Origin: Planctomicrobium piriforme
Lineage (GTDB): Bacteria; Planctomycetota; Planctomycetia; Planctomycetales; Planctomycetaceae
NCBI GenBank assembly: GCA_945860955.1
Contig: CAMATH010000093.1
Span: 1 to 34,137 of the forward strand
Direction: 5' to 3'
Length of the DNA stretch: 34,137 nt
In this document: positions 7,972 to 32,680 of the stretch, one piece after another
How positions within the stretch are numbered: the first letter of the stretch is position 1
Layout: each line of letters starts with the position of its first letter
Translations under genes and position numbers: made by a program
Notes under the pieces: generated by a model
Told to the model about the DNA's origin: nothing
Databases searched by the model: none
Seen by the model: only the letters and a program-made list of their open reading frames with translations

Positions 7972-9030
7972 TTACTTCAGACTCGCCAGATCGACATCGT
8001 GCGCGATGCACGCCACGCAGTCTCCCTGCGCGACGAGGGCGGGACCACGCGTCGCCAGCAGCACCCCCGACGTCGGAGCGATAATCGGGACCGGTTCCCG
8101 ATCGGGGCGTTCGAGAAAGTGAATCTGCGCCACCGTCTGACCGGTCGCCACGTCGGCCCCCAGCGGAACCAGCGCTTCAAACACTCCCGATTCGGGTGCG
8201 AAGCGGTAATCGTCGCGACTGAGTGCCTGCACCCAGCGGGTTGGCGGCAACCCCAGTCCCTGGCGCGTCACCGGTTCCCCCGTCAGCACACCGAAGTGCC
8301 GCAGAACGTTCGAAAGTCCCACCTGCGTGATCGTGTGAACTCCCGAGGGGACCGGTTCTCCCCCTCCCATTTCGGTCGTCACCACAATCTTGCCCTGGTT
8401 TTCCGCCTCGACCGGCAGCAGTCCTGAGCCGGCGACGTCGGCGTAGACGAACGAGATATCGGTGTTCCACGCCTCGACACCGGCGGTCATCGTGGCCCGC
8501 TGTTTCAGGTCGGGAACCAGGTGCATGGTCGCACACGGGACGAAATCCATACTCCGTCCTCCGGTATGGATATCGATCACGATATCGGCCATTGGGAACA
8601 GAACCGTGGTCAGATAGTGCGCGATGATCGACGTCACGCTGCCGTCTGCTTTGCCTGGAAACGCCCGGTTCAGATTCATCCCATCGAGGGGCGACAACCG
8701 TGTCGACGCTTTCGCTGCCGGAAAGTTGAGCGACGGAATCAGAATCAGCCGGCCTCGAACGTGGCTCGGTTCGAGATTTCGGCACAGTTTCATGATGGCG
8801 ATCTGCCCCGGGTACTCATCGCCATGGTTGCCCCCGCTGGCCAGCGCCGTGGGGCCGTCGCCATTCTTGATCACCGTGATCGGCACCAGCAGATTCGCCC
8901 ACCCGCCCAGATTGTACGAGTACGGCACCATCAAGTGCCCGTGCTGTTTTCCCGGAAGGTCGAAATCGACGGTCGCGTGGATCGGGGACGGGGAGGTTGC
9001 AGGGGAGGTCGCGGCAGGTTTCTTGCTCAT
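7972..9030 (-). CDS. Succinylglutamate desuccinylase/aspartoacylase family deacylase (DoeB-like)
   Basis: This 352-residue zinc enzyme belongs to the M14-like AstE/AspA family, which hydrolyses N-acyl amino acids. Zinc ligands are His69 and Glu72 in GGNHGDE and His155 in DIHTGG. The substrate-binding DGMNLNRAFPG segment (116-126) is the family's NxxR signature. The glycine-rich and lipoyl-like C-terminal beta domain (about 275-345) and overall length are like DoeB, the N-alpha-acetyl-2,4-diaminobutyrate deacetylase of ectoine breakdown. No other ectoine genes are present, so that substrate is not claimed. Its start overlaps the comM stop as ATGA (9027-9030), which implies translational coupling. 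The N-terminal 20 residues are Ala/Pro/Ser-rich. Confidence 0.88.
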   Translation of the reverse strand: MSKKPAATSPATSPSPIHATVDFDLPGKQHGHLMVPYSYNLGGWANLLVPITVIKNGDGPTALASGGNHGDEYPGQIAIMKLCRNLEPSHVRGRLILIPSLNFPAAKASTRLSPLDGMNLNRAFPGKADGSVTSIIAHYLTTVLFPMADIVIDIHTGGRSMDFVPCATMHLVPDLKQRATMTAGVEAWNTDISFVYADVAGSGLLPVEAENQGKIVVTTEMGGGEPVPSGVHTITQVGLSNVLRHFGVLTGEPVTRQGLGLPPTRWVQALSRDDYRFAPESGVFEALVPLGADVATGQTVAQIHFLERPDREPVPIIAPTSGVLLATRGPALVAQGDCVACIAHDVDLASLK

Positions 9031-10565
9031 TTGGCCCAGTAGTTTCGGTCGAGGGTTCGGTAGTTGATCGCTTCGCTGAGGTGCTGCGACTGAATGTTGG
9101 GACTCTGGTCGAGGTCGGCGACAGTGCGGGAGACTCGCAAAATCTTGTCGTGCGCACGGGCCGACAATCCCATCTCTTCCATCGCCGTCTTTAACAACGC
9201 TTCGGCACCACGGTCGAGTTTACAATGCTTGCGGATCTGCCGGGGAGTCATCCGGCCGTTGAGTGTGTTGCGGTCGTCGGCGAACCGCTCGGTCTGGATC
9301 GTACGGGCGGCGATCACCTGCGCCCGCATCTGGGCGCTCGTGGTGCCGACCTGGGCGTCGGACAATTCGCGGAACGGGACTGCGGTCACTTCCAGATGAA
9401 TGTCAATGCGATCGAGCAACGGGCCGCTGATCTTGCCGATGTACTTTTCAACCTGCATCGGCAGGCAATTGCAATTTCGCCGGGGATCGCCACGGTAACC
9501 GCACGGGCAGGGGTTGAGTGCCGCCACCAGCATGAGGTTTGCGGGAAACGTCACGCTGCCAATGGCGCGGGAGATTGTGACGTTGCCCGATTCGAGCGGT
9601 TGCCGGAGTACTTCGAGCGTTCGGCGGTTGAATTCGGGAAGTTCGTCCAGGAACAAAACTCCGTTGTGTGCCAGTGAGATTTCCCCTGGTTTAGGCGTGC
9701 TGCCCCCGCCGACGAGTCCCGCTTCACTGACGGTATGGTGCGGCGCGCGAAACGGCCGTTGCAGCAGGAGCGACTGCCCCGCGGCGAGCGCGCCGATCGC
9801 GGAATAGACCTGCGTCGTTTGCAAACTCTCGAGCGGACTGAGATCGGGGAGAATCGTCCCCAAACGTTGCGCGACGAGCGTCTTGCCTGTTCCCGGTGAC
9901 CCGAGCATCAGGAGATGGTGTCCCCCCGCCGCCGCCACGGTGACGGCTCGTTTCGCCATCTCCTGTCCCTTGACGTCCGAGTAGTCAATATCGTAGCCGG
10001 CGAACTGAGACTGTACGTCGTTCCAACTGAACGGCGTCGGCTCAATGTTGAGTTGACCGCTGTACCAGCCGACCGCCTCGGCGAGCGATCCAACGGCGAT
10101 TGTTTCGACCCCCTCGACAACGGCGGCCTCCTGCGCGTTGGCGACGGGGACGACAATGCCGCGCAGTCCCTGCTCACGCGCGGCGATCGACATCGCCAGC
10201 GCCCCCTTCACCGGGCGAATTGTTCCGTCCAATGCCAATTCACCGACGGCGGCGTGCGTGGCGAACCGTTCCGACTGCAACTGCCCGCTGGCGGTCAGCA
10301 TTCCCAGCGCGATCGGCAAGTCGACCGCCGCCGCCTCTTTGGGAAACTCAGCCGGAGAGAGGTTGATCACCACCCGCTCAATCGGGCGATTGTACCCCGT
10401 ATTCACCAACGCCCGTTCGGTCCGGTGAATACTCTCTTTGACCGCCGTCTCGGCCAAACCGACCAGAATGGTCTTGGGGAGCGCGGCGGGAGAGATATCG
10501 ACCTCCACTTCAACGGGAAGCGCCTGGATGCCGAACAGGGAATAGGACGAAAGCTTGGCCAACAT
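9027..10565 (-). CDS. comM: YifB/ComM family Mg-chelatase-like AAA+ ATPase
   Basis: This 512-residue protein has the full ComM layout. An N-terminal Lon-protease-like ChlI domain covers about 20-165. The AAA+ module has Walker A GSPGTGKT (222-229) and Walker B GVLFLDELPEF (302-312). A Cys-containing loop follows (NPCPCGYRGDP and NCNC), then a C-terminal helical Mg-chelatase domain with SARAHDKILRVSRTVADL. In naturally competent bacteria ComM is a hexameric helicase that drives branch migration during transformation; it is also widespread in species not known to be competent. The start at 10565 gives the usual family opening and has no SD. It is coupled by 4 bases to the DoeB-like gene. No other competence gene is nearby. 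Confidence 0.95.
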   Translation of the reverse strand: MLAKLSSYSLFGIQALPVEVEVDISPAALPKTILVGLAETAVKESIHRTERALVNTGYNRPIERVVINLSPAEFPKEAAAVDLPIALGMLTASGQLQSERFATHAAVGELALDGTIRPVKGALAMSIAAREQGLRGIVVPVANAQEAAVVEGVETIAVGSLAEAVGWYSGQLNIEPTPFSWNDVQSQFAGYDIDYSDVKGQEMAKRAVTVAAAGGHHLLMLGSPGTGKTLVAQRLGTILPDLSPLESLQTTQVYSAIGALAAGQSLLLQRPFRAPHHTVSEAGLVGGGSTPKPGEISLAHNGVLFLDELPEFNRRTLEVLRQPLESGNVTISRAIGSVTFPANLMLVAALNPCPCGYRGDPRRNCNCLPMQVEKYIGKISGPLLDRIDIHLEVTAVPFRELSDAQVGTTSAQMRAQVIAARTIQTERFADDRNTLNGRMTPRQIRKHCKLDRGAEALLKTAMEEMGLSARAHDKILRVSRTVADLDQSPNIQSQHLSEAINYRTLDRNYWAK

Positions 10566-10662: not shown

Positions 10663-10940
10663 CCCAAAAACGGGTCGATTTCGATGACCATGGCGAAACG
10701 CGGCTTCATTTCGGACGGCGAGTCAAGTGCACGCGGCGACCATGTGAATGCCCACGTCGGGTCATCTGTCGTCACACGGGCTTTCGTAGTCGCGGCGCCC
10801 GACGTGTGGTGAATTTCAACTGGCGGTTCCGTGGCCGATCCGATTGGCATCTGCTCCGTACCGGCGCGCAGGGATAGTGTGTTGCGCAAATCTCACGCTC
10901 GCAAAATGCGACGCACGATCTGGTTGGCTACAACGCGGGT

Positions 10941-11072
10941 ATGGTCAACGAATTCGAACTGCCAATACGACGACATCTGCTCAGCGCTTCATGCGAGCAG
11001 CTTCGGCAATTTCTGCGGCCGGCGCACGAACTCCACGCGCTGGCCGCACTTTTGGCGAGGGACTTGGAGTGA
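10941..11072 (+). CDS. Possible small protein of 43 residues (doubtful)
   Basis: An ATG-started frame encodes a 43-residue Leu/Arg/His-rich peptide beginning MVNEFELPIRRHLL and ending ALLARDLE. It would form amphipathic helices and looks more protein-like than other short frames in this gap. There is no SD, no recognised family and no partner. It may equally be a gene remnant or chance. Confidence 0.2.
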   Translation: MVNEFELPIRRHLLSASCEQLRQFLRPAHELHALAALLARDLE

Positions 11073-11220
11073 CCCGGGAAGGAGCTGCATAATCCGATCG
11101 TTTGTACGTCACCGATCAATTCTTCAGCCGCTGGTGCCGCCCTGGCGGCTCGCCTCGCCACGTGGGGAATCGGCCGTTATGCTGCGGGCTGAAAATGTTC
11201 ACGCGATGTTGTGCCGATCC

Positions 11221-12435
11221 ATGTCTCAACCGACCGAAACGCCGTCCCTCCTTCCTGCGACCGAGCGAGCGTTCTCTTCTGGCGAGCGGTTGGTTTATAT
11301 CGACGGACTTCGCGGAGCCGCTTCGCTCGCCGTCGCCTGTTACCACATCACGCGATATACCCCGATCGCCACCGCGGCGCGCGGTTTCATCCCCGAATTC
11401 CTGCAGGGAATATTCGATCGGGGATGGGTGGGAGTGCAGGTGTTTTTCGTCATCAGCGGGTTCGTCATCGCATACAGTGTGCGAAACGCCCGGGTGACGC
11501 CGGGGTACGTGGCGAACTACGCGCTCCGACGATCGTTACGGCTCGATCCGCCCTATTGGACAACGATCGCGTTCGTGCTGTTACTGCACGCGGTCTTGCA
11601 TCTGGGATTGGGTTGGGTTTCTCTGTTGGATGAGCCGGAACCGCTGAGTCCCCCGTTGTCGTGGTGGTTGGTGCTGTGCCACGTCCTTTACATCCACAAA
11701 ATCAACGGATACGACAGCCTTTCGGCCGGCTTCTGGACGCTGTGCATTGAGGTTCAATTTTACCTGTTGTACGTGACCAGTCTGGGACTCGCCCAATCCG
11801 TGGGCCGGCTTTTTCCGCGAAGAAAAAGTCGGGAAGCGAGCGATTCCGAGAGCCAGCCAGGCGCGTGGACTCCGACTGGGATTTGCCTGGCGGTCGCGCT
11901 GGGTGCGTTCGCGGTCGCATCGCTGTGGGTGTTCAGCGTCGACAGAGAAAAGTATGAAAACTGGCTGTCGTTCTTTTTCTACCTGTTCTTTCCGGGGTGT
12001 GCCGCGTGCTGGGTTCTCACGCGTCAGGTGCCCGCCGTCGTGTTCTGGGGTTATTTCGCTCTGGCCGTTGGCCGACTTTGGTTTGTGGGTGGGCTCGAAA
12101 GTGTCGGGGAGATGTTTGAGCTGAAGGCGGCGCTGGTGACGGCGCTGTCCATTCTGGTCCTGGGACGAACGGGCCGGTTGACGACGGCACTCAATTGGCA
12201 CTGGCTCCAGTACCTGGGGCGGATTTCCTACAGCCTCTATCTCATCCACTTTCCCGTGAGCCACTTCATTTGCACCGCGGTCGATCGCTGGAATAACGGC
12301 CCTCCATCTCCGGCGATTTCCGCCGGTGTACTGCTGGCATCGCTCCTGGCGAGTATCGCGTGCGCTCATTTACTGCACGTATTCGTCGAGGCTCCCAGCG
12401 TGCGGCTGGCGAACCGGTTTCGTCCCAAACCGTGA
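11221..12435 (+). CDS. Acyltransferase 3 family membrane protein
   Basis: This 404-residue polytopic membrane enzyme is of the acyltransferase-3 (OafA/NodX-like) family, which transfers acetyl or other acyl groups to sugars of exported polysaccharides or lipids. Signatures are YIDGLRG (26-32), His42 in ACYHITRY, the GVQVFFVISGFVIAY segment (71-85) and RRSLRLDPPYW (103-113). The C-terminal LGRISYSLYLIHFPV is also a family hallmark. About ten membrane segments follow. The ATG at 11221 puts the GLRG motif near residue 30, as usual. The open frame continues upstream to 10831 but reads as low-quality Arg/Ser-rich sequence. No SD is visible. No polysaccharide genes are adjacent, so the acceptor is unknown. 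Confidence 0.9.
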   Translation: MSQPTETPSLLPATERAFSSGERLVYIDGLRGAASLAVACYHITRYTPIATAARGFIPEFLQGIFDRGWVGVQVFFVISGFVIAYSVRNARVTPGYVANYALRRSLRLDPPYWTTIAFVLLLHAVLHLGLGWVSLLDEPEPLSPPLSWWLVLCHVLYIHKINGYDSLSAGFWTLCIEVQFYLLYVTSLGLAQSVGRLFPRRKSREASDSESQPGAWTPTGICLAVALGAFAVASLWVFSVDREKYENWLSFFFYLFFPGCAACWVLTRQVPAVVFWGYFALAVGRLWFVGGLESVGEMFELKAALVTALSILVLGRTGRLTTALNWHWLQYLGRISYSLYLIHFPVSHFICTAVDRWNNGPPSPAISAGVLLASLLASIACAHLLHVFVEAPSVRLANRFRPKP

Positions 12436-12450
12436 GAATGAATCGCTCGA

Positions 12451-15400
12451 TTATTCGGCGGTCCGAGCGAATCGTGGCAAATACGCAGCGGTCATGCGGT
12501 CGGTTAGCAAGATCACCGACGAATTCGTTACTGTGATCGGTGTTGCCGCGGGGGAGCCCGGCACGTGGAAGCGTTCGCAACGTCGGCCCGTGCGACGGTC
12601 GAGGCAATCGACGTCCAGGCGTGATTCGTTCTGATCGCTCGAGACCAGCAAGGTCTCACCGGCAACCTGCAACCGCAATTTCGGGTGGGGAGCGGCGGAT
12701 TCCCAGAGGTATTCCCAGATCAGATGCCCATCCGATAGCGAGTGACACCGCACGACGGGTCCAAAGGCGATAACCAGTCGCTCTTCGTCAACTAGTAGGA
12801 CCGGGGAAGGGGAATTCGCGGTGACGGGAAGTCGAAGCTGCCAGAGCGTTCCGCCATTTGCCGCCGAGCGCAGTGACACACAGAAGCCGTCGCGCTGGGA
12901 CAGAAATGCCGCGCCATTATCCAAAGGGAGATCGCCCTGCCGATAGGCCTCTCGCACTCCGTCGTGGATCAAGTTGGGGGTTCGCAGGTTGAGTTGCCCG
13001 GTTCGACCATCGAAATCATGAAACGAGTCGGCGCAACGGGCCACTCCCCAAACCGCATCCGAGGAGCCGATGCGCGGGTCGTCGATCCAGTCGTGGCCTG
13101 GTGGGGTGGGAACATCACGGGCGAAACCGTCGTCGATATCAAAAAACAACGTCCGTCTGGGATGTGTCGTTTGAATCGCGACGATTTGATCGCGGACCAG
13201 CCAATAGGGTGAAATCCATCCCGCGGACGGGCGATAACGCCATTTCGCCTGGCCTTCGACCAGGGCGACTTCGGCACGCGCCAGGCTCATGCCGCCGCCG
13301 CGCGGGGCGTATCGCCACAATGATCGTCCTGTGGAGAGGTCAACAGCAGTCAATTCCACTGGGGGGGCGAATACCAGCAGCACATTTCCCGCCACTCGCA
13401 TTTGAGGCAATTCGCCAATCTTGTCGCGCGGGGGGGCCGGTCGACTCCAGCGCAGGGTGCCGGTCGTCGCATCCCAGGCGCATACCCGCGATCGAGTGGC
13501 CATGATCGTGAGGTGGGAGTTTCCGCCCGCCCATTCGACCGGTTCGACCAAGGGGATTGTCCATCGGACGTCCCCGCTCAGATACGAACGGCAAACGGCT
13601 TGCTGCCCTGCGGTGAGCAACCAGTCGGGAGGGCCGGCAGGGGGGCGTGAATCGGGCAGAAAGACCCGAATTCCGCCGGAACCGTCGACTCGCCAGAGGC
13701 ACGATCCCAGGGGAGTGGAGTGGCCCGCTGTACCTGAACCGCTGGAGGGCCGCCTCCTTCGCCAGACCACCGTCTCCATTTCCCCGGAAGGAACTGCATC
13801 GGTGGAGCCGGTTTCTTCCGGCCTCGCCAGGACACCCTGAAGCCGGTTGGAGGCCCATTCACGGATCGCGGGGTCAGAGGCATGGTTCTCAAGCGCCTGA
13901 TACAGCGCGGTTGCGGTCGCGAAATCACTTTGCTTCTCTGCGATTTCCGTCCCCGATTTGACGACGGAGGCTAGTTCGGGAGTCAGTCTCACGTCGGTCA
14001 ACCAAACAGGCAGGTTGGACACTCTCCCCCGTGCCAATTCCCGCCGGAGTTTTTCTGTCGTCTGGCCGGCGATCTTCAGGTCGAATGCGTTTCGCAGGAT
14101 TTCCCGCGCGCGAGACAATTCCACATCACACACCATGGAAACAGTTTTCGTCTGTCCCGCTCCGGGTGGTAAACGAACCAGATCAGGATCTTCGCGAATC
14201 GTGTTCAAAACGGTGACAGCATCGGTGACCTCTCCCGTCTTGAAGTGCGCGTTGGCCTCTTCGATCATCGCCGACGCACGAATTTCCTTCAAAGGGGAGT
14301 TCTGAGAGGTCAAACGGTAAAACTCCGCGGCGATCAGGGGTTCTCGCTGGTCGCGTGCGGCATCAGCCCGAATTCTCGCAAGATTCGCCAGATGTTCGCG
14401 AGCCCGAGCGTGCGCGGATTGACCGTACCACTCGGAATCCACGGTCGAGTCAAGGAGCAGTCGATACAGGTCGATGGCGGTGGAAGTCGCTCCCTCGGCT
14501 TCCTCGTGAAGTGCCAGGCGGAGTCCGGGAAGTGACTGGTTCGGCTGGGCCGCCATGTCCTGTTCCAATCGAATCTTGCGATTCGCGTACTCCCAGAACG
14601 CCACCATTCGGTCTGACTGGGCGCACACCAAAAAACCGTCGGCGATGACCAGGTTTCCGCCCCCGGGAAGCTGATGCTGCCCTGTCAGTGAGATTTCGCG
14701 ACGAACCCGGCCGGTGGCCGCCTCAACTACCAGGATTTCGTCGAAACGGGGCCAGTAGACGAAGTCTCCGGCGAGTGTCCCGCGCCCGTGTGTTTTGGCT
14801 TCCGGCCCATCCCGCCCCCGTGACCAGGCGACAGCGCCGGTTTCGGGGACCAGGCCCCACAGTTGATCACCCGCGACGATGACGCGATTGTGGCCGACTC
14901 CAATAATCTGGCGAGCGGAGCCTGGCAGGGGACGGTCCCAAAGCCGGATGCCACTGTTGGCGTCGAAAGCGAAAATCGAGTTCGAATCGGTCGGGGCGAC
15001 AAACACGATTCCGTCGTGGATGACGCAGGGATTTGGCCCCAGCGTCTGGCGATCATGGAATTCACGAACCTTGTCGAATTCCATCCGGTTGTAGGTCGCC
15101 CCCCACAACAGGTCGCCTGATCGGGCGTCGACAGCGGCGACGGCACCGAGATTGGTGGCGCAATAGACCCGACCATCAGCGGCCGACAAGAGCAGATGCT
15201 GCTGTTCGTCGTAATCTCCCGCGAACAAATCCAGTCCCTGGCACAAACGCCGGTTCCAGATCACCGTCCCAGTCGCCGGTTCCAGGCAGGCGATGTGCAA
15301 CGTCGGTTGGGGTGTACTCTTTCTGAGGAGGACATACAGGCGATCTTCGAATGGCATCGGGGCACCGTCGAACACCCAGTTGCCGACTTCGTCCGCGAAG

Positions 15401-16755
15401 TGATCCGCGGAAACCGACCAGAGCAAATCCCCTTCGCGCGCCAGGTCAAGACAAACGAGCGTGCTGGGGAGCGCTTCCACCAAGGCGGCGGCCCCGCGCG
15501 AGGGACCACCACGGCCCAGCCGTGCGAACAACCGATTGTCGGCGATGGACAGGCTGAAAGCCGGGAGGCCCACGCGCTGACCTCCGGGTCGGATTGGCCC
15601 CCGCGGATCGAGCGAATGAATGATGGGTGAATCGCCCCATAACGGGCGGGCGTCGCCGCGACTGGAGAGAGCCAGTGCGCGAATCGACGTTTCATCGCAA
15701 AAGAAGACCCCCTGATCATGGATCAGGGGAAACGTCGCCAACACGACGTGTGAAGAACTCACCCGGTCGTTGAGCGGTCCCTGATTGAGAAAACGGGCTT
15801 CAAACGGATTCTGCGACCTGGCTTCACGAAAATCGACTTGTACTTTGGACAGCGGCGTCAGCCAGCGGATCGCTCCCACGTCGACCGCTTCCGACATGAT
15901 GCGCGTCCGCGAAGCGGAACCTCCCAAGGTGTCACTGTGCGCAGGGTCGAGTGTTACCGCGCCACCGGCGGCACGAACTTCCCGATCAAGGATATCGGCC
16001 AGTTGACCGGAGGCCCCCGCCAGTTCTCCGGTGTCGTTCGGATGACGTTTGCGGAATTGAAGAGACTCGCGCAGGGCGCGTTCCCTGTCACCTGCGGCCA
16101 GGCTCGCCAGCACCATCCGCGCCCTCAGCAGCGAGAGTTCAACCCCCGGACGGGGATGATAGGCGACCGGAGGAATTCCCTCGGGGGGCGATTCGGAGTC
16201 AAAAGGGGGGAGCAACCGTTCCCAATATCCACGGGCCAGGTTGGCGTCCCCCCGTTCCAACGCGCGGTCGCCCAAAATCAACAAAGCCTTCGCGCTGTAT
16301 TGGCTATGTAAGGCCCGCTCCACAATCCGTTCGAGAAGCTCGTCATTCCCTTCGGCGAGCCCTTCGTCATACCAGCGACGGGCGAGCGGATCGACACGCG
16401 CCAGATGAGACTGGATTCCGTCGTCCGGGATGGCCGACAGCAGCAAATCGGCGGCGGCATGCACGCGCAGCAATCGGCCCGGATCGATCGAGACCAATCC
16501 GGTGGAGGGGATGGCAGTCGCCTGGTCAATGAGATCGGTCGCCTCGCGCCACTTGCGACTCAAAATCAACTCGCGAGCCGCCCCCAGCTTCCGTGAAGCA
16601 GTCGAGTCAATCTCGAAAAACACCGCATCGGCGGCGGGAGGAGGATCGCCCTGAGCCGAAACAGATCGGACAGTACCGAAGGCACAGATCAACAACAGCG
16701 TTGACACGATACCTTGTGTGGCGATTCCAGGAGGTCGCAGGCGTTCGCACAGCAT
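12451..16755 (-). CDS. Giant secreted PQQ-type beta-propeller/TPR protein (1434 aa)
   Basis: This is a 1434-residue exported protein. The signal peptide (about 1-35) ends near SVSAQG. Residues 50-260 form helical TPR-like repeats. About 330-725 is a first propeller of PQQ/BamB-type blades, with repeated units such as VDARSGDLLW (542-551), FDANSGIRLW (597-606) and VPETGAVAWSR (636-646). A second helical region spans about 745-985, and a second propeller about 1000-1425, with WDATTGTLRWSR and VDLSTGRSLWRY blades. No kinase, peptidase or transmembrane domain is seen. Such proteins may scaffold envelope complexes or bind PQQ or polysaccharide; none of this is shown here. The start at 16755 follows a small membrane gene by 7 bp. 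It has the same domain order as the 1508-aa protein at 25568-30094. Confidence 0.88.
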   Translation of the reverse strand: MLCERLRPPGIATQGIVSTLLLICAFGTVRSVSAQGDPPPAADAVFFEIDSTASRKLGAARELILSRKWREATDLIDQATAIPSTGLVSIDPGRLLRVHAAADLLLSAIPDDGIQSHLARVDPLARRWYDEGLAEGNDELLERIVERALHSQYSAKALLILGDRALERGDANLARGYWERLLPPFDSESPPEGIPPVAYHPRPGVELSLLRARMVLASLAAGDRERALRESLQFRKRHPNDTGELAGASGQLADILDREVRAAGGAVTLDPAHSDTLGGSASRTRIMSEAVDVGAIRWLTPLSKVQVDFREARSQNPFEARFLNQGPLNDRVSSSHVVLATFPLIHDQGVFFCDETSIRALALSSRGDARPLWGDSPIIHSLDPRGPIRPGGQRVGLPAFSLSIADNRLFARLGRGGPSRGAAALVEALPSTLVCLDLAREGDLLWSVSADHFADEVGNWVFDGAPMPFEDRLYVLLRKSTPQPTLHIACLEPATGTVIWNRRLCQGLDLFAGDYDEQQHLLLSAADGRVYCATNLGAVAAVDARSGDLLWGATYNRMEFDKVREFHDRQTLGPNPCVIHDGIVFVAPTDSNSIFAFDANSGIRLWDRPLPGSARQIIGVGHNRVIVAGDQLWGLVPETGAVAWSRGRDGPEAKTHGRGTLAGDFVYWPRFDEILVVEAATGRVRREISLTGQHQLPGGGNLVIADGFLVCAQSDRMVAFWEYANRKIRLEQDMAAQPNQSLPGLRLALHEEAEGATSTAIDLYRLLLDSTVDSEWYGQSAHARAREHLANLARIRADAARDQREPLIAAEFYRLTSQNSPLKEIRASAMIEEANAHFKTGEVTDAVTVLNTIREDPDLVRLPPGAGQTKTVSMVCDVELSRAREILRNAFDLKIAGQTTEKLRRELARGRVSNLPVWLTDVRLTPELASVVKSGTEIAEKQSDFATATALYQALENHASDPAIREWASNRLQGVLARPEETGSTDAVPSGEMETVVWRRRRPSSGSGTAGHSTPLGSCLWRVDGSGGIRVFLPDSRPPAGPPDWLLTAGQQAVCRSYLSGDVRWTIPLVEPVEWAGGNSHLTIMATRSRVCAWDATTGTLRWSRPAPPRDKIGELPQMRVAGNVLLVFAPPVELTAVDLSTGRSLWRYAPRGGGMSLARAEVALVEGQAKWRYRPSAGWISPYWLVRDQIVAIQTTHPRRTLFFDIDDGFARDVPTPPGHDWIDDPRIGSSDAVWGVARCADSFHDFDGRTGQLNLRTPNLIHDGVREAYRQGDLPLDNGAAFLSQRDGFCVSLRSAANGGTLWQLRLPVTANSPSPVLLVDEERLVIAFGPVVRCHSLSDGHLIWEYLWESAAPHPKLRLQVAGETLLVSSDQNESRLDVDCLDRRTGRRCERFHVPGSPAATPITVTNSSVILLTDRMTAAYLPRFARTAE

Positions 16756-16762
16756 GGTGGCA

Positions 16763-16930
16763 CTACCGGGGCTGGCGGAGCATCTGTCCGATGGAAAACA
16801 CCACGATCGCCAGCAATGTGGCCGTGGGCATCACCAACAGCGGGAAACCGAAGAACAGTTGCCAGCCAATAACGAGCGGCAAGAGCATCAGGACGGCCAG
16901 TTGCAGCAGAAAACCCAGGGACTGTCGCAC
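16763..16930 (-). CDS. Small membrane protein with two TM segments; 5' end possibly frameshifted
   Basis: This short frame encodes 55 residues from a GTG at 16930: MRQSLGFLLQ, then two strongly hydrophobic stretches (about 5-21 and 26-46) and a basic tail GQMLRQPR. It stops 7 bp before the 1434-aa protein's ATG, so the two are probably co-transcribed. The same frame stays protein-like upstream to a TAG at 16982-16984 (reading DLQQFVRLPPSHEVAPTVRQ), but has no ATG there. An ATG at 16988 would join this frame if one G of the GG in GTAGGATC were removed, giving about 74 residues. I take the gene as real but the start as unresolved. Function is unknown. Confidence 0.6.
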   Translation of the reverse strand: MRQSLGFLLQLAVLMLLPLVIGWQLFFGFPLLVMPTATLLAIVVFSIGQMLRQPR

Positions 16931-17022
16931 TGTCGGGGCAACTTCGTGAGATGGCGGGAGGCGGACGAACTGTTGCAGATCCTACCATGAATTTGACTAT
17001 CCGGGCTACTCCGCCACAAACC

Positions 17023-18534
17023 TCAGGGTGAACCCATGATGGCAAGCAACTGCCCACCGCCGGTAAAAGTCCCACCGGCGACGAATTCCCGGTACGTGAT
17101 CAACGCGTAAGCGTATCCATCGAGAATGACAAAGTCCTGAACATAAGCCTGGGTTCCGACACCGGGAACTGGAATCGAGAACTTTGCCCGGATGGGAGAG
17201 CCACCATTCCAGGAAAATCGATCAACGATCACATCGACCGTCTTTTTTGTGGCATTGGTCGCGGTCCAGCAGACGCAAATCTCCGCGTCGGTCGCGTAGA
17301 CACGCGTGGTTTCGGCATGCCACTGGTCGTCGACCGTGGTTTCCGTGGGGTTATAATCGTATTGCCAGGAAACAGCACCTCCATTCAGGTCGACGCATTG
17401 CAGGTGAGTACTCGTATTGCTGGTCATCCTGACAGATAGTACTGCCAGGCGATCACCGCTCAGAGAAACCTGGTATGACAACAAATTCCCGGTAATAATT
17501 TTTCCAAGCGAGGTGGACATCGTTTGTGCACCTGTCGCTCGACTCAATACCCGCAGGGTTGAAGGCTGATCCAAGTCAAAGTGATAGATTGCCGGGTGGG
17601 TGATCAGGCAGATTCGCGTCGCGTCCATACACCAGGGTTTTGACGCCGCCATTCCATCGTAACCACGCGCGTTGGCGTCATTGGGAATGCTCCAGGTCCA
17701 CCCGGTGTTATATGTGCCAGTCGCGGGAACGTAGTTTAATGATCGAACTTTGGTTCCGTAACCAAAGGTGTAGGTGGTGCCACTGAGGGCAGCGCTCGGA
17801 ATCGTCTCGGGACAGGTCACGTAGACTGTTGTGGCGTCCATCAGGGGGGTCGGATTATTGAAATCGTGTGGGGTGTTTGACATGTTTTTTGCGACGCCAT
17901 TGACCTTAAATTTAAAGTAGGTGTTGCCCTGGCCATGGCCGGACGCGCTGAGAATCACCGCCGGGCAACCGTCACACATCCCAAAGTACCCGTGCATATT
18001 GAAACTTGACGTTCCCGCCCAGGTTCTCGCCGCCCCCGTCATTGCGTCGAACGCCCCATAGTGAAAGTTGTCGCCGGATGACTGAAAATGGAGTGTGTCA
18101 TCGCTGGCCCAATAGACACTGAATTCACCGGGACGGAGGTCGCGACCCTCGGTAGAAGATCCCCATTCACCACGTGTCGACTTGGACAACGCTGTGGGAA
18201 ATTGACGCAGCAATTGGCCAGTTTGTGAATAGATTCCAATGTCGGTCCCTGAAGTGCCGGGAGTCAACAACGCGATTTCCCCGGCACGCGAAACGATGTT
18301 CTTGTTGCGAGTCGACCCCCAGCGGCTGCCACGTGGCGCGGCCGTACCCGGGTTTTGGCGTTTTTGCGGATCCAAGACAATCGCTTTGATCATCTGTAGT
18401 TGAAATGGTAGGATCGAATTGCTGCACCGACGGTGCGAACCGTCGCCATAGGGACCAAGACGGTCCTCTGCAAATAGCGTCGCCGTCAAACTAAAAAGCG
18501 CAACCCCCACCAGCGCGAATGGCCAAGGCTTCAT
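17023..18534 (-). CDS. Secreted protein of unknown function, beta-rich (503 aa)
   Basis: I do not recognise a family. The 503 residues start with a clear Sec signal peptide (MKPWPFALVGVALFSLTATLFA). The mature part is rich in Thr, Ser, Gly, Asn, Tyr and Trp, with recurring short beta motifs (LLTPGTSGTDIGIYSQTGQ, VYWASDDTLHF, CVDLNGGAVSWQYDY) that suggest an irregular propeller. Several Cys occur as nearby pairs (MCDGC, ICVCW). I prefer the ATG at 18534, which has GAGG six bases upstream, over an in-frame TTG at 18546. The gene looks less GC-rich than its neighbours, with many A/T third positions, which may indicate recent acquisition or relaxed selection. It precedes the small membrane gene and the giant propeller gene, so a shared envelope role is possible. 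Confidence 0.75.
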   Translation of the reverse strand: MKPWPFALVGVALFSLTATLFAEDRLGPYGDGSHRRCSNSILPFQLQMIKAIVLDPQKRQNPGTAAPRGSRWGSTRNKNIVSRAGEIALLTPGTSGTDIGIYSQTGQLLRQFPTALSKSTRGEWGSSTEGRDLRPGEFSVYWASDDTLHFQSSGDNFHYGAFDAMTGAARTWAGTSSFNMHGYFGMCDGCPAVILSASGHGQGNTYFKFKVNGVAKNMSNTPHDFNNPTPLMDATTVYVTCPETIPSAALSGTTYTFGYGTKVRSLNYVPATGTYNTGWTWSIPNDANARGYDGMAASKPWCMDATRICLITHPAIYHFDLDQPSTLRVLSRATGAQTMSTSLGKIITGNLLSYQVSLSGDRLAVLSVRMTSNTSTHLQCVDLNGGAVSWQYDYNPTETTVDDQWHAETTRVYATDAEICVCWTATNATKKTVDVIVDRFSWNGGSPIRAKFSIPVPGVGTQAYVQDFVILDGYAYALITYREFVAGGTFTGGGQLLAIMGSP

Positions 18535-18625
18535 TTCCGTCCTCAAACTCGATCAACGAGGTTCTGGGATCTCGCAACGAGCGGCCAGGAACAGCCATTC
18601 ACTTGCGGCACCTCCCGATGATCGA

Positions 18626-18654
18626 ATTCTATTAAACCAGTTTTGAATAAGCAA
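18626..18654 (-). promoter_or_regulatory. Candidate promoter for the 503-aa secreted protein gene
   Basis: In an AT-rich patch, TTGCTT (18649-18654) and TAGAAT (18626-18631) lie 17 bases apart on the minus strand, with the -10 about 92 bases before the ATG at 18534. A perfect TATAAT also occurs at 18676-18681 on the same strand, but without a good -35. The patch (about 18626-18690) is the most AT-rich in the window. Confidence 0.4.
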
Positions 18655-18714
18655 ACGTCAGGTCGTCTATTTTTGATTATATAGAAAACCTGTCGTAAGC
18701 GGCGGATTGGGGGT

Positions 18715-19773
18715 TCAGATTCGACTCTCGACGGCCGCGGCCACGGCCGTCGTTGTGGCCGTCCCTCCTAGATCTGGCGTCTTTGGTGCGGATTCCCTGA
18801 GTACGCCTGCGACGCCAGTTTGGACCGCACGGGCCGCCGTGGAACACCCCAAATGCTCCAGCATCATTCCCGCCGACAAAATGGCCGCCAGCGGATTCGC
18901 GACACCACGACCGACAATGTCCGGGGCCGATCCATGGACCGGCTCAAACATGCTGGGTGACCGCCGCGTCGGGTCGATGTTCGCCGACGCCGCCAGCCCC
19001 ATGCTCCCCACGACGATCGCCCCCAGATCGGTAAGAATATCGCCAAACAGATTGCTGGCTACCACTACATCGAACGACTCGGGTCGCCGGACGAATTCCA
19101 TCACGGCGCGATCAATCAGCAACGATTCGGTCGCGACGTCCGGAAAGTCGGCGGCGACCCGGGCGAAACACTCGTCCCAGAGAACCATTCCGAATCCCTG
19201 GGCGTTGCTTTTCGTGATCGACGCGACCTTTTTACGCGGGCGCTTCGTCGCGGCTTCGAAAGCGGCGCGGATGATCCGCTCGCAGCCTCGGCGGGTGAAC
19301 ACCGACGTCTGAACCGCGCTCTCTTCGGGAAATCCCTGGTACAACCGTCCCCCGATGTTGGCGTATTCCCCTTCCGTGTTTTCACGGAACACCAGCATGT
19401 CGATCGAGCGCGGGGCCTTTCCCACCAGAGGACTCGGCACCCCCTCATACAAATACGAGGGACGCAGACAGATGAACTGGTCGAATTTCCGACGGATCGG
19501 CAGTAGCAAACCGTTGAGCGTGATGTGATCCTGCACCTTCGGATGCCCGACCGCCCCGAGCAGAATCGCGTCGAATTGTGACAGTTGATCCAGATAGTCC
19601 GCCGGTGCCATCCGACCATGTTGGAAAAAATAGTCGGTCCCCCACGGAAACGCGGTCCATTCCAGACGAACCTGTTCGATCGCAGCCGCTTTCTCCGCGA
19701 TTGTCTGCGCCCCAACAGTCACCTCAGGACCAATCCCGTCCCCCGCGATCACCGCGATTCGATGTGTCCGCAT
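18715..19773 (-). CDS. D-malate/tartrate dehydrogenase-like beta-decarboxylating dehydrogenase
   Basis: This 352-residue enzyme belongs to the isocitrate/isopropylmalate dehydrogenase family; it oxidises and decarboxylates a 2-hydroxy acid with NAD and Mn/Mg. It looks like E. coli DmlA (YeaU) and tartrate dehydrogenase TtuC rather than LeuB. The supporting features are FDAILLGAVGHPKVQDHI (67-84), VFRENTEGEYANIGGR (128-143), VFTRRG (158-163) and the ending GPKTPDLGGTATT type (here APKTPDLGG). Catalytic and metal residues are visible: Arg94, Arg104, Arg130, Lys188 (TKSN), Asp221, Asp245 and Asp249 (SNLFGDILTDLG). The start at 19773 has AAGGAG at 19780-19785, six bases upstream and directly after the stop of the preceding hydrolase gene. 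D-malate or tartrate is the likely substrate. Confidence 0.9.
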   Translation of the reverse strand: MRTHRIAVIAGDGIGPEVTVGAQTIAEKAAAIEQVRLEWTAFPWGTDYFFQHGRMAPADYLDQLSQFDAILLGAVGHPKVQDHITLNGLLLPIRRKFDQFICLRPSYLYEGVPSPLVGKAPRSIDMLVFRENTEGEYANIGGRLYQGFPEESAVQTSVFTRRGCERIIRAAFEAATKRPRKKVASITKSNAQGFGMVLWDECFARVAADFPDVATESLLIDRAVMEFVRRPESFDVVVASNLFGDILTDLGAIVVGSMGLAASANIDPTRRSPSMFEPVHGSAPDIVGRGVANPLAAILSAGMMLEHLGCSTAARAVQTGVAGVLRESAPKTPDLGGTATTTAVAAAVESRI

Positions 19774-25567: not shown

Positions 25568-28500
25568 ATGATGCTTCCCCGAGTTTTGTGCCGTGTCTGG
25601 TTGGCCTGTCTCGCCCTGGCGGCGAGTCCGGTGACGCTCTTTGGATTTCAGGCGCTCGACCGGGCCGCGCGGCAGTCGCCCGATGATGCGCCCGCCGACC
25701 CCAAGGACGATCGCGGGACGGCCCTCAGTCGCCGCGACATGGCGAAGCGTCTGTCAACCGCCCGCCGGCTGATCGACGAACAACGCTATGCTGAGGCGAT
25801 CGCCCAGATTCAACGGGTTCTTGACAATCCCCAGGATGAATACTGCGCGGTTCCCGGGTTACGGACCAGGGAACAGAGTGGCAAATCGCTCGCCGAGGAA
25901 CTGCTGCTGTCGCTCCCCGAGGAGGCGCAGGACATTTACGAAAAGCAGAACGGCCCCGCGGCGCAGCGACTTCTGGAAAAGACGCTGAAGGAGTTCGGCA
26001 ATCTCGACCAGGTCGTGGATCGGTACCTGCACACGCGGGCCGGCTCCCAGGCTCTGTATCGACAATCGGTCGATGCCTGGGAACGGGGACAACCGTTGGT
26101 GGCTGCGCAAGGTTTTGAACGACTGCGGCAGCGGGGATTCGAATTGCGTGAACTGGAGCCGATGTTGACGCTGCGAACCGCGGCGGCCTGGTCGCAAGCG
26201 GGCGACCTGGACCGGGCCCGGCGTCTGTTCAATGAGTTCGAGGCGATAAATTCCGGTGGGAATCTCCAGGTTGGCGGACAAAAACTGACTGTCCCCAAGT
26301 CGGGAGGACTGCCGGTTTGGCTCGCGCAACGGGAAGGGTCTGCCGGAAGATTGCACCAGGAAGTGAGCGACAACTGGTTGACCTGGCGGGGAAACTCCCA
26401 GCGCAACGGGGTGGGAACCGGGGGCGGCCCGTATTTGAACCATGGCTGGAGGGTGGAGACGCTGGCCAGTCTGGCCCGCGACACCAAGGAAGGCCGACTG
26501 GTCGACATCCTGTCGGAACTGAGCGACTTGGCGCGATTGGATAACGAAGCGACGCCGGCGATTTCGGTCGGATCGCCGCTGGTTGTGGGAAATCTCGTGA
26601 TCTTCCGGTCGCTGTACAATTTGCGGGCGGTCGACCGTGTGACGGGAACCCCTGTTTGGACGAACGCCGAACGTGATAACGACATCTTTGAGTTGTTGCG
26701 GCCCGGTCCGGGTGGCTTGCCGCAATCCAATCAGACGATGGGAACTCCAGCAGAGTATGTCGTCGGACAGCGGCTCTGGTCCGACATCAACTACAACTCG
26801 ATCAGTTCTGATGCGGAGCGGGTCTACGCAGTGGAAGACTTAGGATTCGTGGTTCCCGCACTGCCGGCGCGAATCGGCCCGTCACAGGCGATTCACAACC
26901 GGTTGATGGCGTATGACGCCCGATCCGGACGCATGCTGTGGGAGGCGGGCGCGCCGCGGGAGCCGGCGGGGGACGCGTTGGCCGGAGTCTTTTTTCTGGG
27001 TGCCCCGGTCGCGTGGCAGGGAATGTTGTACGCGATCGTCGACCTTGGTTCGTCTCCGCACTTGGCGGTGTTTCAACCCAAAAGCGGAAAGCTCGTGGTT
27101 CTACAACCACTCGGCACCGACGAAGTCGAACTTTCCTGGGTCGATCGCGCGCGACTCACTTCCGGTTTAACTCCATCGACCGATGGCGGAGTTTTGCTTT
27201 GCCCGACCGGCCCCGATTCGGTGACCGCCTACGACCCGGGACGCCGTCGGCTGATGTGGCGCTATCGCTTTCGGCCACGCACGGAAGCTCCCGGGCCGCG
27301 GGGACAATTGCAGTTGATGCAACAGCAGATGGCCCGGGGATCGAACCGGCTTCCCGAACAGGCCGGATGGATCGACTACGCGGGGATCATCGATTCCGGC
27401 AGGGCGATCTATTCCCCCAAAGATTCGGATGAACTCTTCTGCCTCAACGTGAACGATGGAACCCTGGCCTGGAAGGCGGCCCGCGGTGGGGGACTCTACG
27501 TCGGCGGCATCCGCGATGGCGTCGTTCTCGTCGTCGGGAGGAATTTCATCCAGGGACTTCGACTCGACGACGGACGTCCCGCGTGGAACAGCCCCACTAT
27601 GTTGCCCGTTGTCACCGGTCGTGGCTGCCTCTCGGACCAGTCGTATCTTGTTCCCCTGGCCAGCGGAGAAGTGGCGGCGGTCGACGTCAACGACGGGCGG
27701 ATTCTGTCACGGGCCAAGTCGTTCGCGGGACATGTCCCCGGTTCACTGGTGATGGCGGGGGGAACGATTGTCTCTCAACGACTCGACATGGTCTCGGGTT
27801 TCCGTCAGGTCGAAGCGTTACAAGCCGAAATCGCCGCGAAGCTCGCGGTCGACCCCAACCATCCCGAGTCACTCACAATCCGCGGGCAGATGCGGCTCGA
27901 ACGGGGTGAGTTTGGCGAAGCACTGGGAGACCTGGAACGTGCCGTCGCGCTGGCCCCCGACAACCTGGAAGCGCGCGGCCTCCTGCTGACGGCGCTGCTC
28001 GAAGGGTTGCGGACTGACTTTGAAAAATACCACACGTTCGGCCCCCGCGCGGGTGAACTCGTGGGGCATGGTCACGAACGGTCGCAATTCCACTGGCTCA
28101 TGGCACAGGGGAGCGAGCGATTGGGAGATCGCCAGGCCGCGTTCTCGCACCTCCTCTCGTTCAGCGATCCGGAAGTGGTCGACCGTGAACTGGAACGTGT
28201 GCAGACTTCGGTTCTGATTCGTCGGGATCGCCAGGTGATGGTGGCGGCAGAGCGGATTCTCAAAGAGGCGACGGACGCGGAGCGTCCGCTGTTGTTGGAA
28301 AAGCTCAACACCGCGATCGGTCGTGCGCTCGGCTCCACCGACCCGCTCGCCGGCGCGCGGTTTCTGCGCTACTTCGGCAATCTGCTTCCCAATCTCGCGA
28401 GTGCGACTTTGACCAACGTCGCGAGTCTGGGCCAATCTCACTGGCTCGATGCGGAATTGGAGATTCAACGGGCGTTGAAGTCGGCGGATGCCCGTACTTC

Positions 28501-30094
28501 GGCCCGATTGATGGTGGAGTGGGGCGAGATGCTCGCGCGAACCGAAAAACCTCGAGAATTGGCGGTCCTCGCCGATCTTGTGGAGCGGGACTACGCACAG
28601 GTTGAACTGCAACCTGGCGGTGAGACTGTTGGCCAGCGAGCCGCGACATGGCGCGAGCGTCCGGGGCTCAAACGCCGGGCGACCGCCCGCCACGACTGGG
28701 CCACGGGCAAAGTGGAAACCGAGCGATTGCCTGGCGTTCGCCCCGCGTTTATCGGGCGCACTCAGCCGATCCAGTTTGACGGGCCACGCGGACCGTTCCT
28801 GTCGGGGGTGACTCTCGAACTGGGGACGGGAGACCAGCAACTTGTCGCGCGCGACGGAAGTGGCAAGACTTTGTGGAAGCTTAGTTTGGACACCCAGATC
28901 TGGACCGGAAATGCCCAGTTCAACCGCGCCTGGGTGCGCGACCACCTGCTTCTGCTGCTGGTGGGAAAAGACCTGCTGGCGGTGGATTTGCTGGGATCTC
29001 CCGATGATCCGGGGCCACGCTGGTTGTGGCACCAGACTTTGATTGAAGGCTCCGCCGCCATTATGGTTCAGCGCGGGCTGCCGCCCCCGCGGGCGAGAAT
29101 CAATTTCGCCCCCCTGGGACCAGACAATACGGCCGTGGTCGGCCCGGCGACGTTTGATCATCTGGTGGTGTTGCGTGGTCGGCGGCTTTCGGCCCTCGAT
29201 CCGGTGACAGGACAAACGATCTGGATGCGGGAAGGTGTGCCTGCGGGAGCCGGGTTGTTTGGCGACGACGACTACCTGTTTGTGGTGCCACCCGATGCGC
29301 ACGAGGCACTCGTGTACGGCATGCGGGATGGTTCCGACGCCAAACTGCCGGACGGAACTCCCGTCGGCTCAAAGCGTCTCCCTCCCTCCAACTGGTGGCT
29401 GGAGCCACAGGGACGCCACCTGGTTCTTTGGGGAAAGCCACTCGACAAACAGGTGCTGGCCCTGCGCGACATTCTCTCCAATCAGGATGTCTGGAGCCGG
29501 GAATTCCCGGTGGGAGCGTTCGTTGCGCTGGTCGAATCGGAAGAAGCCCTGGTTCTCGATCCCACCGGCCGGGTCACGTGTCTCTCGTTAAAAGATGGTT
29601 CCATCCGCTTCGAGTCCGAAGTCACCCCCCAGCCCAATACCAACGAACTGCAGGTGCTGCGAACCCGCGATCAATACCTGGTCATTGCCAATGAACCGCT
29701 CCCCAACGGTCCCTCCATCGTTCGCAATCAGCAGAACGTCCACTTGACGGTGAACGGCGTCGTGCATGCTCTCGACCGCGCTTCGGGCAAACGGCTGTGG
29801 AGTTCCGAAATGACGAAACAGCAGATCGACCCGCAACAGCCGTCCGAAATACCACTCGTGACGTTCGCCTCGCACATCTTTGAACCCCGCCGAACCGGCA
29901 ATGGTCTCGAACAGAAGTTCCTGCTGACAAGCCTTGACCGGCGGACGGGTCGACTCCTGTATGAAGAGAGCCGTGGTGACGAGCCGTTGCACTTCATTGA
30001 TTACCGGATCGATGAAGACGCGTCGACCATCGAATTGCAGCTCTTTCAGTCCGTCATTCGATTCACGTTCACCGCGAAATCTTCGACCCCATAG
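25568..30094 (+). CDS. Giant secreted PQQ-type beta-propeller/TPR protein (1508 aa)
   Basis: This 1508-residue exported protein has a signal peptide (about 1-27). The first helical repeat region (55-230) includes ARRLIDEQRYAEAIAQIQRV and SLAEELLLSLPEEAQ. The first PQQ/BamB-type propeller spans about 265-730, with blades such as DWRG-like TWRGNSQRNG (272-281), YDARSGRMLWEAG (449-461) and LNVNDGTLAWKA (626-637). TPR repeats follow (about 745-1015, best at LERGEFGEALGDLERAVALAPDNLEA). A second propeller spans about 1075-1500 (LDPVTGQTIWMREG, LDRASGKRLWSSE). No membrane anchor is seen. AGGAAG at 25560-25565 is only two bases from the ATG at 25568 and five from the ATG at 25571, so the second ATG may be the true start. 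The 3' end overlaps the HEAT-repeat gene by 26 bases. Function is unknown. Confidence 0.9.
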   Translation: MMLPRVLCRVWLACLALAASPVTLFGFQALDRAARQSPDDAPADPKDDRGTALSRRDMAKRLSTARRLIDEQRYAEAIAQIQRVLDNPQDEYCAVPGLRTREQSGKSLAEELLLSLPEEAQDIYEKQNGPAAQRLLEKTLKEFGNLDQVVDRYLHTRAGSQALYRQSVDAWERGQPLVAAQGFERLRQRGFELRELEPMLTLRTAAAWSQAGDLDRARRLFNEFEAINSGGNLQVGGQKLTVPKSGGLPVWLAQREGSAGRLHQEVSDNWLTWRGNSQRNGVGTGGGPYLNHGWRVETLASLARDTKEGRLVDILSELSDLARLDNEATPAISVGSPLVVGNLVIFRSLYNLRAVDRVTGTPVWTNAERDNDIFELLRPGPGGLPQSNQTMGTPAEYVVGQRLWSDINYNSISSDAERVYAVEDLGFVVPALPARIGPSQAIHNRLMAYDARSGRMLWEAGAPREPAGDALAGVFFLGAPVAWQGMLYAIVDLGSSPHLAVFQPKSGKLVVLQPLGTDEVELSWVDRARLTSGLTPSTDGGVLLCPTGPDSVTAYDPGRRRLMWRYRFRPRTEAPGPRGQLQLMQQQMARGSNRLPEQAGWIDYAGIIDSGRAIYSPKDSDELFCLNVNDGTLAWKAARGGGLYVGGIRDGVVLVVGRNFIQGLRLDDGRPAWNSPTMLPVVTGRGCLSDQSYLVPLASGEVAAVDVNDGRILSRAKSFAGHVPGSLVMAGGTIVSQRLDMVSGFRQVEALQAEIAAKLAVDPNHPESLTIRGQMRLERGEFGEALGDLERAVALAPDNLEARGLLLTALLEGLRTDFEKYHTFGPRAGELVGHGHERSQFHWLMAQGSERLGDRQAAFSHLLSFSDPEVVDRELERVQTSVLIRRDRQVMVAAERILKEATDAERPLLLEKLNTAIGRALGSTDPLAGARFLRYFGNLLPNLASATLTNVASLGQSHWLDAELEIQRALKSADARTSARLMVEWGEMLARTEKPRELAVLADLVERDYAQVELQPGGETVGQRAATWRERPGLKRRATARHDWATGKVETERLPGVRPAFIGRTQPIQFDGPRGPFLSGVTLELGTGDQQLVARDGSGKTLWKLSLDTQIWTGNAQFNRAWVRDHLLLLLVGKDLLAVDLLGSPDDPGPRWLWHQTLIEGSAAIMVQRGLPPPRARINFAPLGPDNTAVVGPATFDHLVVLRGRRLSALDPVTGQTIWMREGVPAGAGLFGDDDYLFVVPPDAHEALVYGMRDGSDAKLPDGTPVGSKRLPPSNWWLEPQGRHLVLWGKPLDKQVLALRDILSNQDVWSREFPVGAFVALVESEEALVLDPTGRVTCLSLKDGSIRFESEVTPQPNTNELQVLRTRDQYLVIANEPLPNGPSIVRNQQNVHLTVNGVVHALDRASGKRLWSSEMTKQQIDPQQPSEIPLVTFASHIFEPRRTGNGLEQKFLLTSLDRRTGRLLYEESRGDEPLHFIDYRIDEDASTIELQLFQSVIRFTFTAKSSTP

Positions 30095-32234: not shown

Positions 32235-32680
32235 GTCGTCTCCTCCGACAAGGGCGTCAAAATCGAAACTCCTGCTATAGGTATTCGACGAAGCAGAACC
32301 GGAAATTCGGTTAGGGAGGGAACGATCGAAAGAACCGTTACAGGCAGAACGGTTTGTCTGTTTTGCCCATTTTACAAATGTCGCGCCGACGCACCTTCGG
32401 CGTCGCGCCGACGCCGACAGGCAAAGGTCAGGTCGAATCACCGTTACCCGTCGTTTGAATCTGTTGTCGATCGTCGCGCGAGCAGTTGATTCCGATACGA
32501 CGATTCAATCTGTCACCACTCAACTCGGCCGAAGAGCGTCCAGACCGCGGCGTCAGGAGACCCTTTGAAGTCGTTTCGTGGCGCTGGTAGCATCTCCGCC
32601 CTTGCAACAACTTCGTTTCGCAACGCTGGCCGTTTGCAAACAACTCGACTTCACCCCGAAAGAACGCGAGCTGGAATTAC
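32235..32680. other. 446-bp divergent intergenic region with a 12-bp direct repeat
   Basis: This separates the HEAT-repeat gene (-) and the DUF1254 gene (+). GTCGCGCCGACG occurs twice, at 32380-32391 and 32402-32413, 22 bases apart start to start. CGACGC/GCGTCG within it can also fold as a small stem. An open frame continues upstream of the HEAT-protein GTG to 32441, but its translation is not protein-like and it lacks an SD. No RNA gene is seen. Promoters for both genes should lie here, but none is convincing. Confidence 0.5.
32380..32413. repeat. Tandem 12-bp direct repeat GTCGCGCCGACG
   Basis: Two identical 12-base copies lie 10 bases apart in the divergent spacer. Spacing of two helical turns (22 bases) would suit a dimeric regulator binding one face, but the repeat may be chance in GC-rich DNA. 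Confidence 0.4.

Follow-up and report, generated by a model that had tools for sequence, protein, structure and literature searches.

Three consecutive genes on the minus strand of a planctomycete genome raise the question of whether an unfamiliar secreted protein, a very small membrane protein and a giant beta-propeller protein belong to one conserved envelope cluster, as an earlier note on this DNA had proposed. The stretch analysed, here called the window, comprises 34,137 nucleotides of contig C93, one of the 282 contigs in a draft genome of 8.4 Mb from the family Planctomycetaceae. The first gene (17023–18534; ATG at 18534, stop codon ending at 17023, with an alternative TTG start at 18546 giving 507 aa) encodes a secreted protein of 503 aa. 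The second (16763–16930; GTG at 16930, stop codon ending at 16763) encodes a 55-aa two-helix membrane protein, termed SM below, and the third (12451–16755; ATG at 16755) a 1434-aa exported protein in which a helical-repeat and beta-propeller unit is present in tandem duplication. SM lies 92 bp from the 503-aa gene and 7 bp (16756–16762) from the 1434-aa gene, in agreement with the order and spacing first described. Hydropathy analysis gave two hydrophobic stretches for the 55-aa protein, as expected for the two transmembrane helices assigned to it earlier, and one N-terminal hydrophobic stretch each for the 503-aa and 1434-aa proteins. The range originally given for the cluster, 16763–18534, spans the 503-aa and 55-aa genes; the 1434-aa gene, though named as a member, lies outside it. 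Overall, the earlier observation stands and its interpretation is partly supported.

The distribution of SM was determined by sequence search, which detected it in 110 of 150 genomes of the family (45 of 58 genera), and with a profile built from 40 sequences, which recovered it, with a single match per carrier, from 123 genomes out of 170 in the order. Search and profile together did not find SM in 39 of the 150 family genomes. In a sample of 294 genomes from the phylum there were ten carriers, all in the same family, which has 17 members listed there, and SM was not found outside Planctomycetaceae in that sample. Thalassoglobus neptunius KOR42 was among the genomes in which it was found, there with a weakly matching propeller behind it. 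With start codons chosen by rule, the protein measured 53–57 aa in 101 of the 110 genomes. Over the 40 sequences, five columns were invariant (Gly6, Gln10, Pro18, Phe45 and Leu51) and seven were near-invariant, among them Met34-Pro35, Gly48 and Arg52. The family was defined in this analysis by the resulting pattern of G6, Q10, P18, M34-P35, F45, G48 and L51-R52 in about 55 aa, which the SM of the window also displays. The conserved residues extend over the whole length of the protein, and conserved polar residues occur inside the helices. Residues 2 and 52 are positively charged, and residue 30 in the loop is K/R in half of the sequences, which leaves the orientation in the membrane ambiguous. 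The possibility of a chance reading frame was rejected on the basis of the 110 homologues and of five close pairs, in which most differences fell at third codon positions. Pfam and NCBIfam gave no convincing match and PHROGs was likewise unhelpful; fragmentary database matches (E 0.0014–0.35), each occurring in at most 2 of the 40 SM sequences, were taken as chance. Judged from its sequences, SM is a strongly conserved, unnamed family of predicted two-helix membrane proteins.

Of the 110 SM genomes, 64 (from 25 of the 45 genera) have a propeller gene directly downstream of SM and in the same orientation; another gene followed in 44 genomes and the contig ended in two. Since the genomes are mutually related, counts are given per genus as well. 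Some of the 64 downstream frames were short, at least partly because of contig ends (103, 206, 362 and 527 aa), that of genome G072 was 413 aa with a different start, and the propeller matches behind SM in G007, G062, G087, G104 and G114 were weak. For genomes with other neighbours, the readable flank measured 1.0–10.1 kb downstream and, in the shortest case, 0.5 kb upstream; contig ends may thus account for some absences, and more distant partners are possible. With propeller start codons chosen by a hydrophobicity rule, the two frames overlapped by 4 bp (stop/start) in 21 of the 64 pairs, from nine genera, which argues for translational coupling. A family-wide propeller search, which scored the best three candidates per genome (the directly-downstream count used a wider query set), gave a propeller at E 1e-40 in 73 of the 110 SM genomes. 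After correction of coordinates, 54 of these had both genes on the same contig and strand, with SM first and within 430 bp, and in the remaining 19 the best SM and propeller places were on different contigs. This operon linkage favours a shared role and suggests that SM and the propeller are an old conserved pair within Planctomycetaceae.

SM may also anchor the propeller or help to export it, as had been suggested. At the same threshold, a propeller was still present in 18 of the 39 family genomes in which SM was not found. Six propellers from SM-free genomes were examined; like those behind SM, they start with a cleavable-looking signal peptide, and N-terminal inspection of the six revealed no added anchor, suggesting that SM is not required everywhere for export or holding.

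The 1434-aa protein starts with a signal-peptide-like region read from the sequence (16651–16755, about the first 35 residues, up to SVSAQ). On the minus strand this is followed by helical repeat domain 1 (15970–16605, about residues 51–262, from the structure model), a BamB-like propeller 1 (14590–15936, about residues 274–722, from the model and matches), helical repeat domain 2 (13696–14589, residues 723–1020, approximate) and propeller 2 (12454–13695, residues 1021–1434, approximate). Profile comparison with hhalign matched the two propellers to each other at 98.5 % probability and the helical domains likewise at 96.3 %, indicating a tandem duplication. The model of unit 1, built from 13 sequences (pLDDT 79.5, pTM 0.80), consisted mostly of helices over residues 26–237, a propeller to 697 and helices thereafter (model numbering; add 25). 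In relatives, the propellers behind SM were 657–845 or 1,110–1,585 aa long, plus five shorter, which suggests one or two units; this number was read from frame length, and the domain-by-domain self-comparison was done on the window protein.

The closest fold to this protein is that of BamB (YfgL), the outer membrane assembly factor, with which it shares a PQQ-like envelope propeller. Propeller 1 aligned with Klebsiella pneumoniae BamB at Z 31.7 and 3.1 Å over 330 residues, tied with other BamB entries and with YxaL of Bacillus velezensis. In a Foldseek search, tetrathionate hydrolase headed the list together with BamB (E 5e-16), and quinohaemoprotein dehydrogenases ranked lower. At the sequence level, the protein matched PQQ_2 (BamB type; E 2.1e-39, score 136) and solved BamB chains at E 1.8e-7. 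The curated BamB model TIGR03300, however, scored 60.4 bits against a cut-off of 285.2, and identity with BamB was rejected on this basis. The 1434-aa protein further differs from BamB in having two units, each with helical repeats ahead of its propeller, and no visible lipobox, the N-terminus reading LLLIC and then SVSAQ by eye, with no G/A/S before the Cys. An ordinary PQQ enzyme was likewise rejected, the NCBIfam enzyme models being far under cut-off (TIGR03075, 30.6 against 480.05; TIGR03074, 21 against 832.65), although PF01011 did pass, at 43.9 bits against the Pfam cut-off of 26.7, over residues 533–615 only (83 residues). A vicinal Cys-Cys pair is absent from the window protein, and the G001 orthologue has one near its C-terminus. 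As modelled, the 1434-aa protein has a BamB-type fold yet is not BamB.

The window also encodes a second propeller/TPR protein of 1508 aa (25568–30094, plus strand), a distant paralogue of the 1434-aa protein. Its closest relatives among the propellers compared were 1523–1546 aa long, with 25–27 % identity over nearly the full length; they are encoded near the single-unit propeller in g39 (loci L073–L075), a genus in which the searches did not find SM. The 3′ end of its gene overlaps, on the opposite strand, the 3′ end of a gene for a 790-aa HEAT-repeat protein (30069–32441, minus strand).

A second recurrent partner of SM was identified on its upstream side. The gene of a secreted blue-copper protein (cluster c3) stood directly before SM on the same strand in 38 of the 110 genomes and 20 of the 45 genera, and c3, SM and propeller occurred together in 16 genomes from 12 genera. 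Either c3 or the propeller was beside SM in 86 of the 110 genomes (33 of 45 genera), and neither was near it in 22. The ligands His145, Cys185, His188 and Met191 (numbered as in the first sequence) were invariant in 18 of 18 aligned c3 sequences, and the c3 profile matched solved blue-copper and amicyanin chains with best E values of 0.0009 and 0.002. These sequence features identify c3 as a type-1 blue-copper protein with predicted copper binding. It has the same His...Cys-x2-His-x2-Met ligands as the amicyanin/blue copper domain and differs from amicyanin in an extra CarboxypepD_reg-like domain, which was detected in 17 of the 18 sequences at E 0.01, mostly below the Pfam cut-off. Methylamine dehydrogenase pairs with amicyanin. 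Quinoprotein dehydrogenases resemble the 1434-aa protein in their envelope propeller, in a PF01011 match confined to residues 533–615 and in that the propeller is, in many relatives, encoded near a type-1 copper protein; they differ in that the curated enzyme models are far under cut-off and in that the copper gene of the window is not adjacent.

Genes of the c3 type are widespread, occurring in 148 of the 150 genomes at E 1e-15 and often in several copies; the window genome has at least three, none of them directly before SM. In at least 12 of the 18 SM-free propeller genomes (11 of genus g39, and G056), c3 directly preceded the propeller with a gap of about 18–95 bp, and in the other six no copper gene was beside the propeller among the places listed. 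This arrangement suggests that c3, SM and the propeller probably share an ancestral locus. The old cluster order was most likely blue copper, SM, propeller, and the simplest reading of the gene orders would be an ancestral operon of the three followed by repeated losses and moves. In a search for a third recurrent neighbour, three of the 22 clusters listed included genomes with neither partner: one taken, from its end coordinate, for SM's own frame (11 of the 22 genomes with neither partner), an antisense cluster (one) and a 478-aa family (three). One large neighbour cluster that mixed propellers with antisense-shadow-like frames was left out of the counts. At locus L250 (5313–7001), a tandem pair of c3 genes lies directly upstream of SM and the propeller. 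No paper on SM or on the c3-SM-propeller operon was present among the literature matches listed.

The conserved three-gene cluster first envisaged holds for the order of SM and propeller and not for the 503-aa gene, which was found in two of the 150 family genomes. Both belong to the genus of the window (two of four genus genomes), the second carrier being one congener. No sound match was found elsewhere in the 294 phylum genomes, where the best five candidates per genome were scored and the best other E value, 0.007, was taken as noise. The atypical composition noted earlier was confirmed, with a GC of 0.549 and a GC3 of 0.61 against 0.67–0.80 for GC3 in seven other measured genes. Upstream of the 503-aa gene in the window lies an isopropylmalate/isocitrate dehydrogenase-like gene (18715–19773, minus strand). 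In the congeners G002 and G003, the dehydrogenase-like gene is followed directly by SM (gaps of 188 and 86 bp) without the 503-aa gene, which would therefore have been inserted in the window or lost in those two genomes. In G001, the C-terminal part of the 503-aa frame is directly before SM and the N-terminal part is behind the dehydrogenase-like gene on another contig. The 503-aa gene looks like a recent, genus-restricted and foreign-looking arrival on this sequence evidence. That it is instead an ancient member since lost by most lineages is improbable. Its place between the dehydrogenase-like gene and SM, with its G001 parts in matching places, would fit such a history; the old-member reading was nevertheless rejected, given the two carriers, the lack of a sound match in the phylum sample, the absence from the gap in G002 and G003 and the unusual GC3.

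The patch upstream of this gene (18535–18714, minus strand) had been described as AT-rich and promoter-like. The first part was borne out (47.8 % GC against 60.7 % for the window), and by eye parts of the patch are common to the window and G001. The second was not: a scan of 16500–18900 gave two sigma-70-like sites against 1.1 expected, which is chance level, and none of them within the patch; no promoter or terminator at the locus rose above chance level.

As in the earlier note, no family was recognised for the 503-aa protein: searches of Pfam, NCBIfam and PHROGs returned none, and a PDB sequence search gave nothing useful. The structure model was poor (pLDDT 31.5 from a two-row alignment), with secondary structure almost entirely strand, and the best-ranked solved chains were mostly propellers, but at a TM of about 0.15. 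Comparison with the propellers by hhalign reached at most 6.8 % (propeller 2), and one 30-residue blade-like stretch aligned with propeller 1 at E 0.019. The protein is perhaps a degenerate propeller, which at this model quality is a guess. The idea that it diverged from a duplicate of the upstream copper protein was rejected (hhalign 0.1 %).

Our preferred reading, to which we assign a probability of roughly 0.4, is that the SM and propeller genes are the remnant of an old Planctomycetaceae operon in which SM acts as a docking or assembly point for periplasmic proteins. The copper protein and the propeller would be exported via their own signal peptides, and SM would form a two-helix hairpin that remains in the cytoplasmic membrane and whose invariant Gly, Gln and Pro residues make up the docking or assembly point. 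The large helical-plus-propeller protein would then act in association with the membrane, as a scaffold or redox partner, rather than free-floating. In the genus of the window, where the copper gene is not adjacent, the young 503-aa gene with its own AT-rich upstream region would fill the slot. The proposal builds on gene order and conservation, on the confident model of unit 1, on the c3 copper ligands and on how few genomes carry the 503-aa gene; from these we infer co-transcription, physical contact, the docking role and the age of the operon. SM may plausibly dock the propeller. A bolder version is unlikely in its entirety: an undescribed envelope complex of Planctomycetaceae in which the SM hairpin docks, on the periplasmic side of the membrane, the helical-repeat propeller and in many genera also the copper protein as a redox or scaffold system, with the 503-aa protein replacing the copper protein in the genus of the window.

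The occurrence of SM in 22 genomes with neither partner nearby, and in 44 with another gene downstream, indicates that SM may have a role of its own. It could be an independent small subunit of another inner-membrane complex whose neighbours are operon companions without contact, a serious rival that we regard as somewhat less probable than the docking reading. Its retention in those 22 genomes would fit such a role, and the conserved polar residues within its helices suggest packing on another membrane protein; the recurrence of the same two partners in 33 of 45 genera, with frames often overlapping or nearly touching, points the other way, as drift should have kept fewer such arrangements. 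Arrest peptides have been described in front of localisation genes (PMC12992588), and a short membrane-inserting frame just before that of an exported protein, overlapping it by 4 bp in 21 of the 64 pairs, could likewise be a leader whose insertion during translation controls translation of the propeller. This is very improbable for SM, since conserved residues are distributed over the entire protein and 46 of the 110 genomes retain SM with no propeller seen directly behind it (two at a contig edge).

The alternation of helical repeats with propellers also brings to mind the membrane-coat-like proteins of the Planctomycetes–Verrucomicrobia–Chlamydiae (PVC) bacteria, gp4978 and others, which like the 1434-aa protein are large and combine propellers with stacked helices (PMC2799638). 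Santarella-Mellwig et al. (2010) describe PVC proteins in which stacked helices come after an N-terminal propeller, and report gp4978, a planctomycete propeller-plus-helix protein, beside vesicle membranes. Sagulenko et al. (2017; PMC5287468) report propeller proteins in pore-bearing Gemmata membranes. The 1434-aa protein might on these grounds be a periplasmic relative with a part in shaping the cytoplasmic membrane, SM serving as its foot there. The published architecture sets the two apart: a propeller and then C-terminal helices in the coat-like proteins, against a signal-peptide-like start and helices-propeller twice here. The window protein thus departs from the coat-like order with a helical start and a propeller end, though its internal propeller does precede helices. 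Macromolecule uptake was moreover unaffected in a Planctopirus limnophila mutant without one coat-like protein, according to Boedeker et al. (2017; PMC5394234). Overall, we consider this reading quite unlikely.

For planctomycete proteins that combine propellers with helices, parts in membrane coats or pores have been under discussion; an operon linking one of them to a dedicated membrane hairpin and, in many genera, to a copper protein gives a specific hypothesis of another kind. What makes the locus interesting is SM with its conserved linkage, not the 503-aa gene, which would be an example of a young gene settling within an old neighbourhood. SM, at 55 aa, single-copy and unnamed in databases, now has two recurrent partners of recognisable fold, so its function is directly testable.

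Two further genes of the window lie beyond the propeller. A Mg-chelatase/ComM-like gene (9027–10565, minus strand) is downstream of the propeller here, and in 6 of the 110 SM genomes a gene of this type is divergent and upstream of SM or of its copper neighbour, which would fit a rearranged neighbourhood in the window. In the acyltransferase frame (10831–12435, plus strand), the first 150 or so residues fall outside the Acyl_transf_3 match, and the start is probably placed too far upstream.
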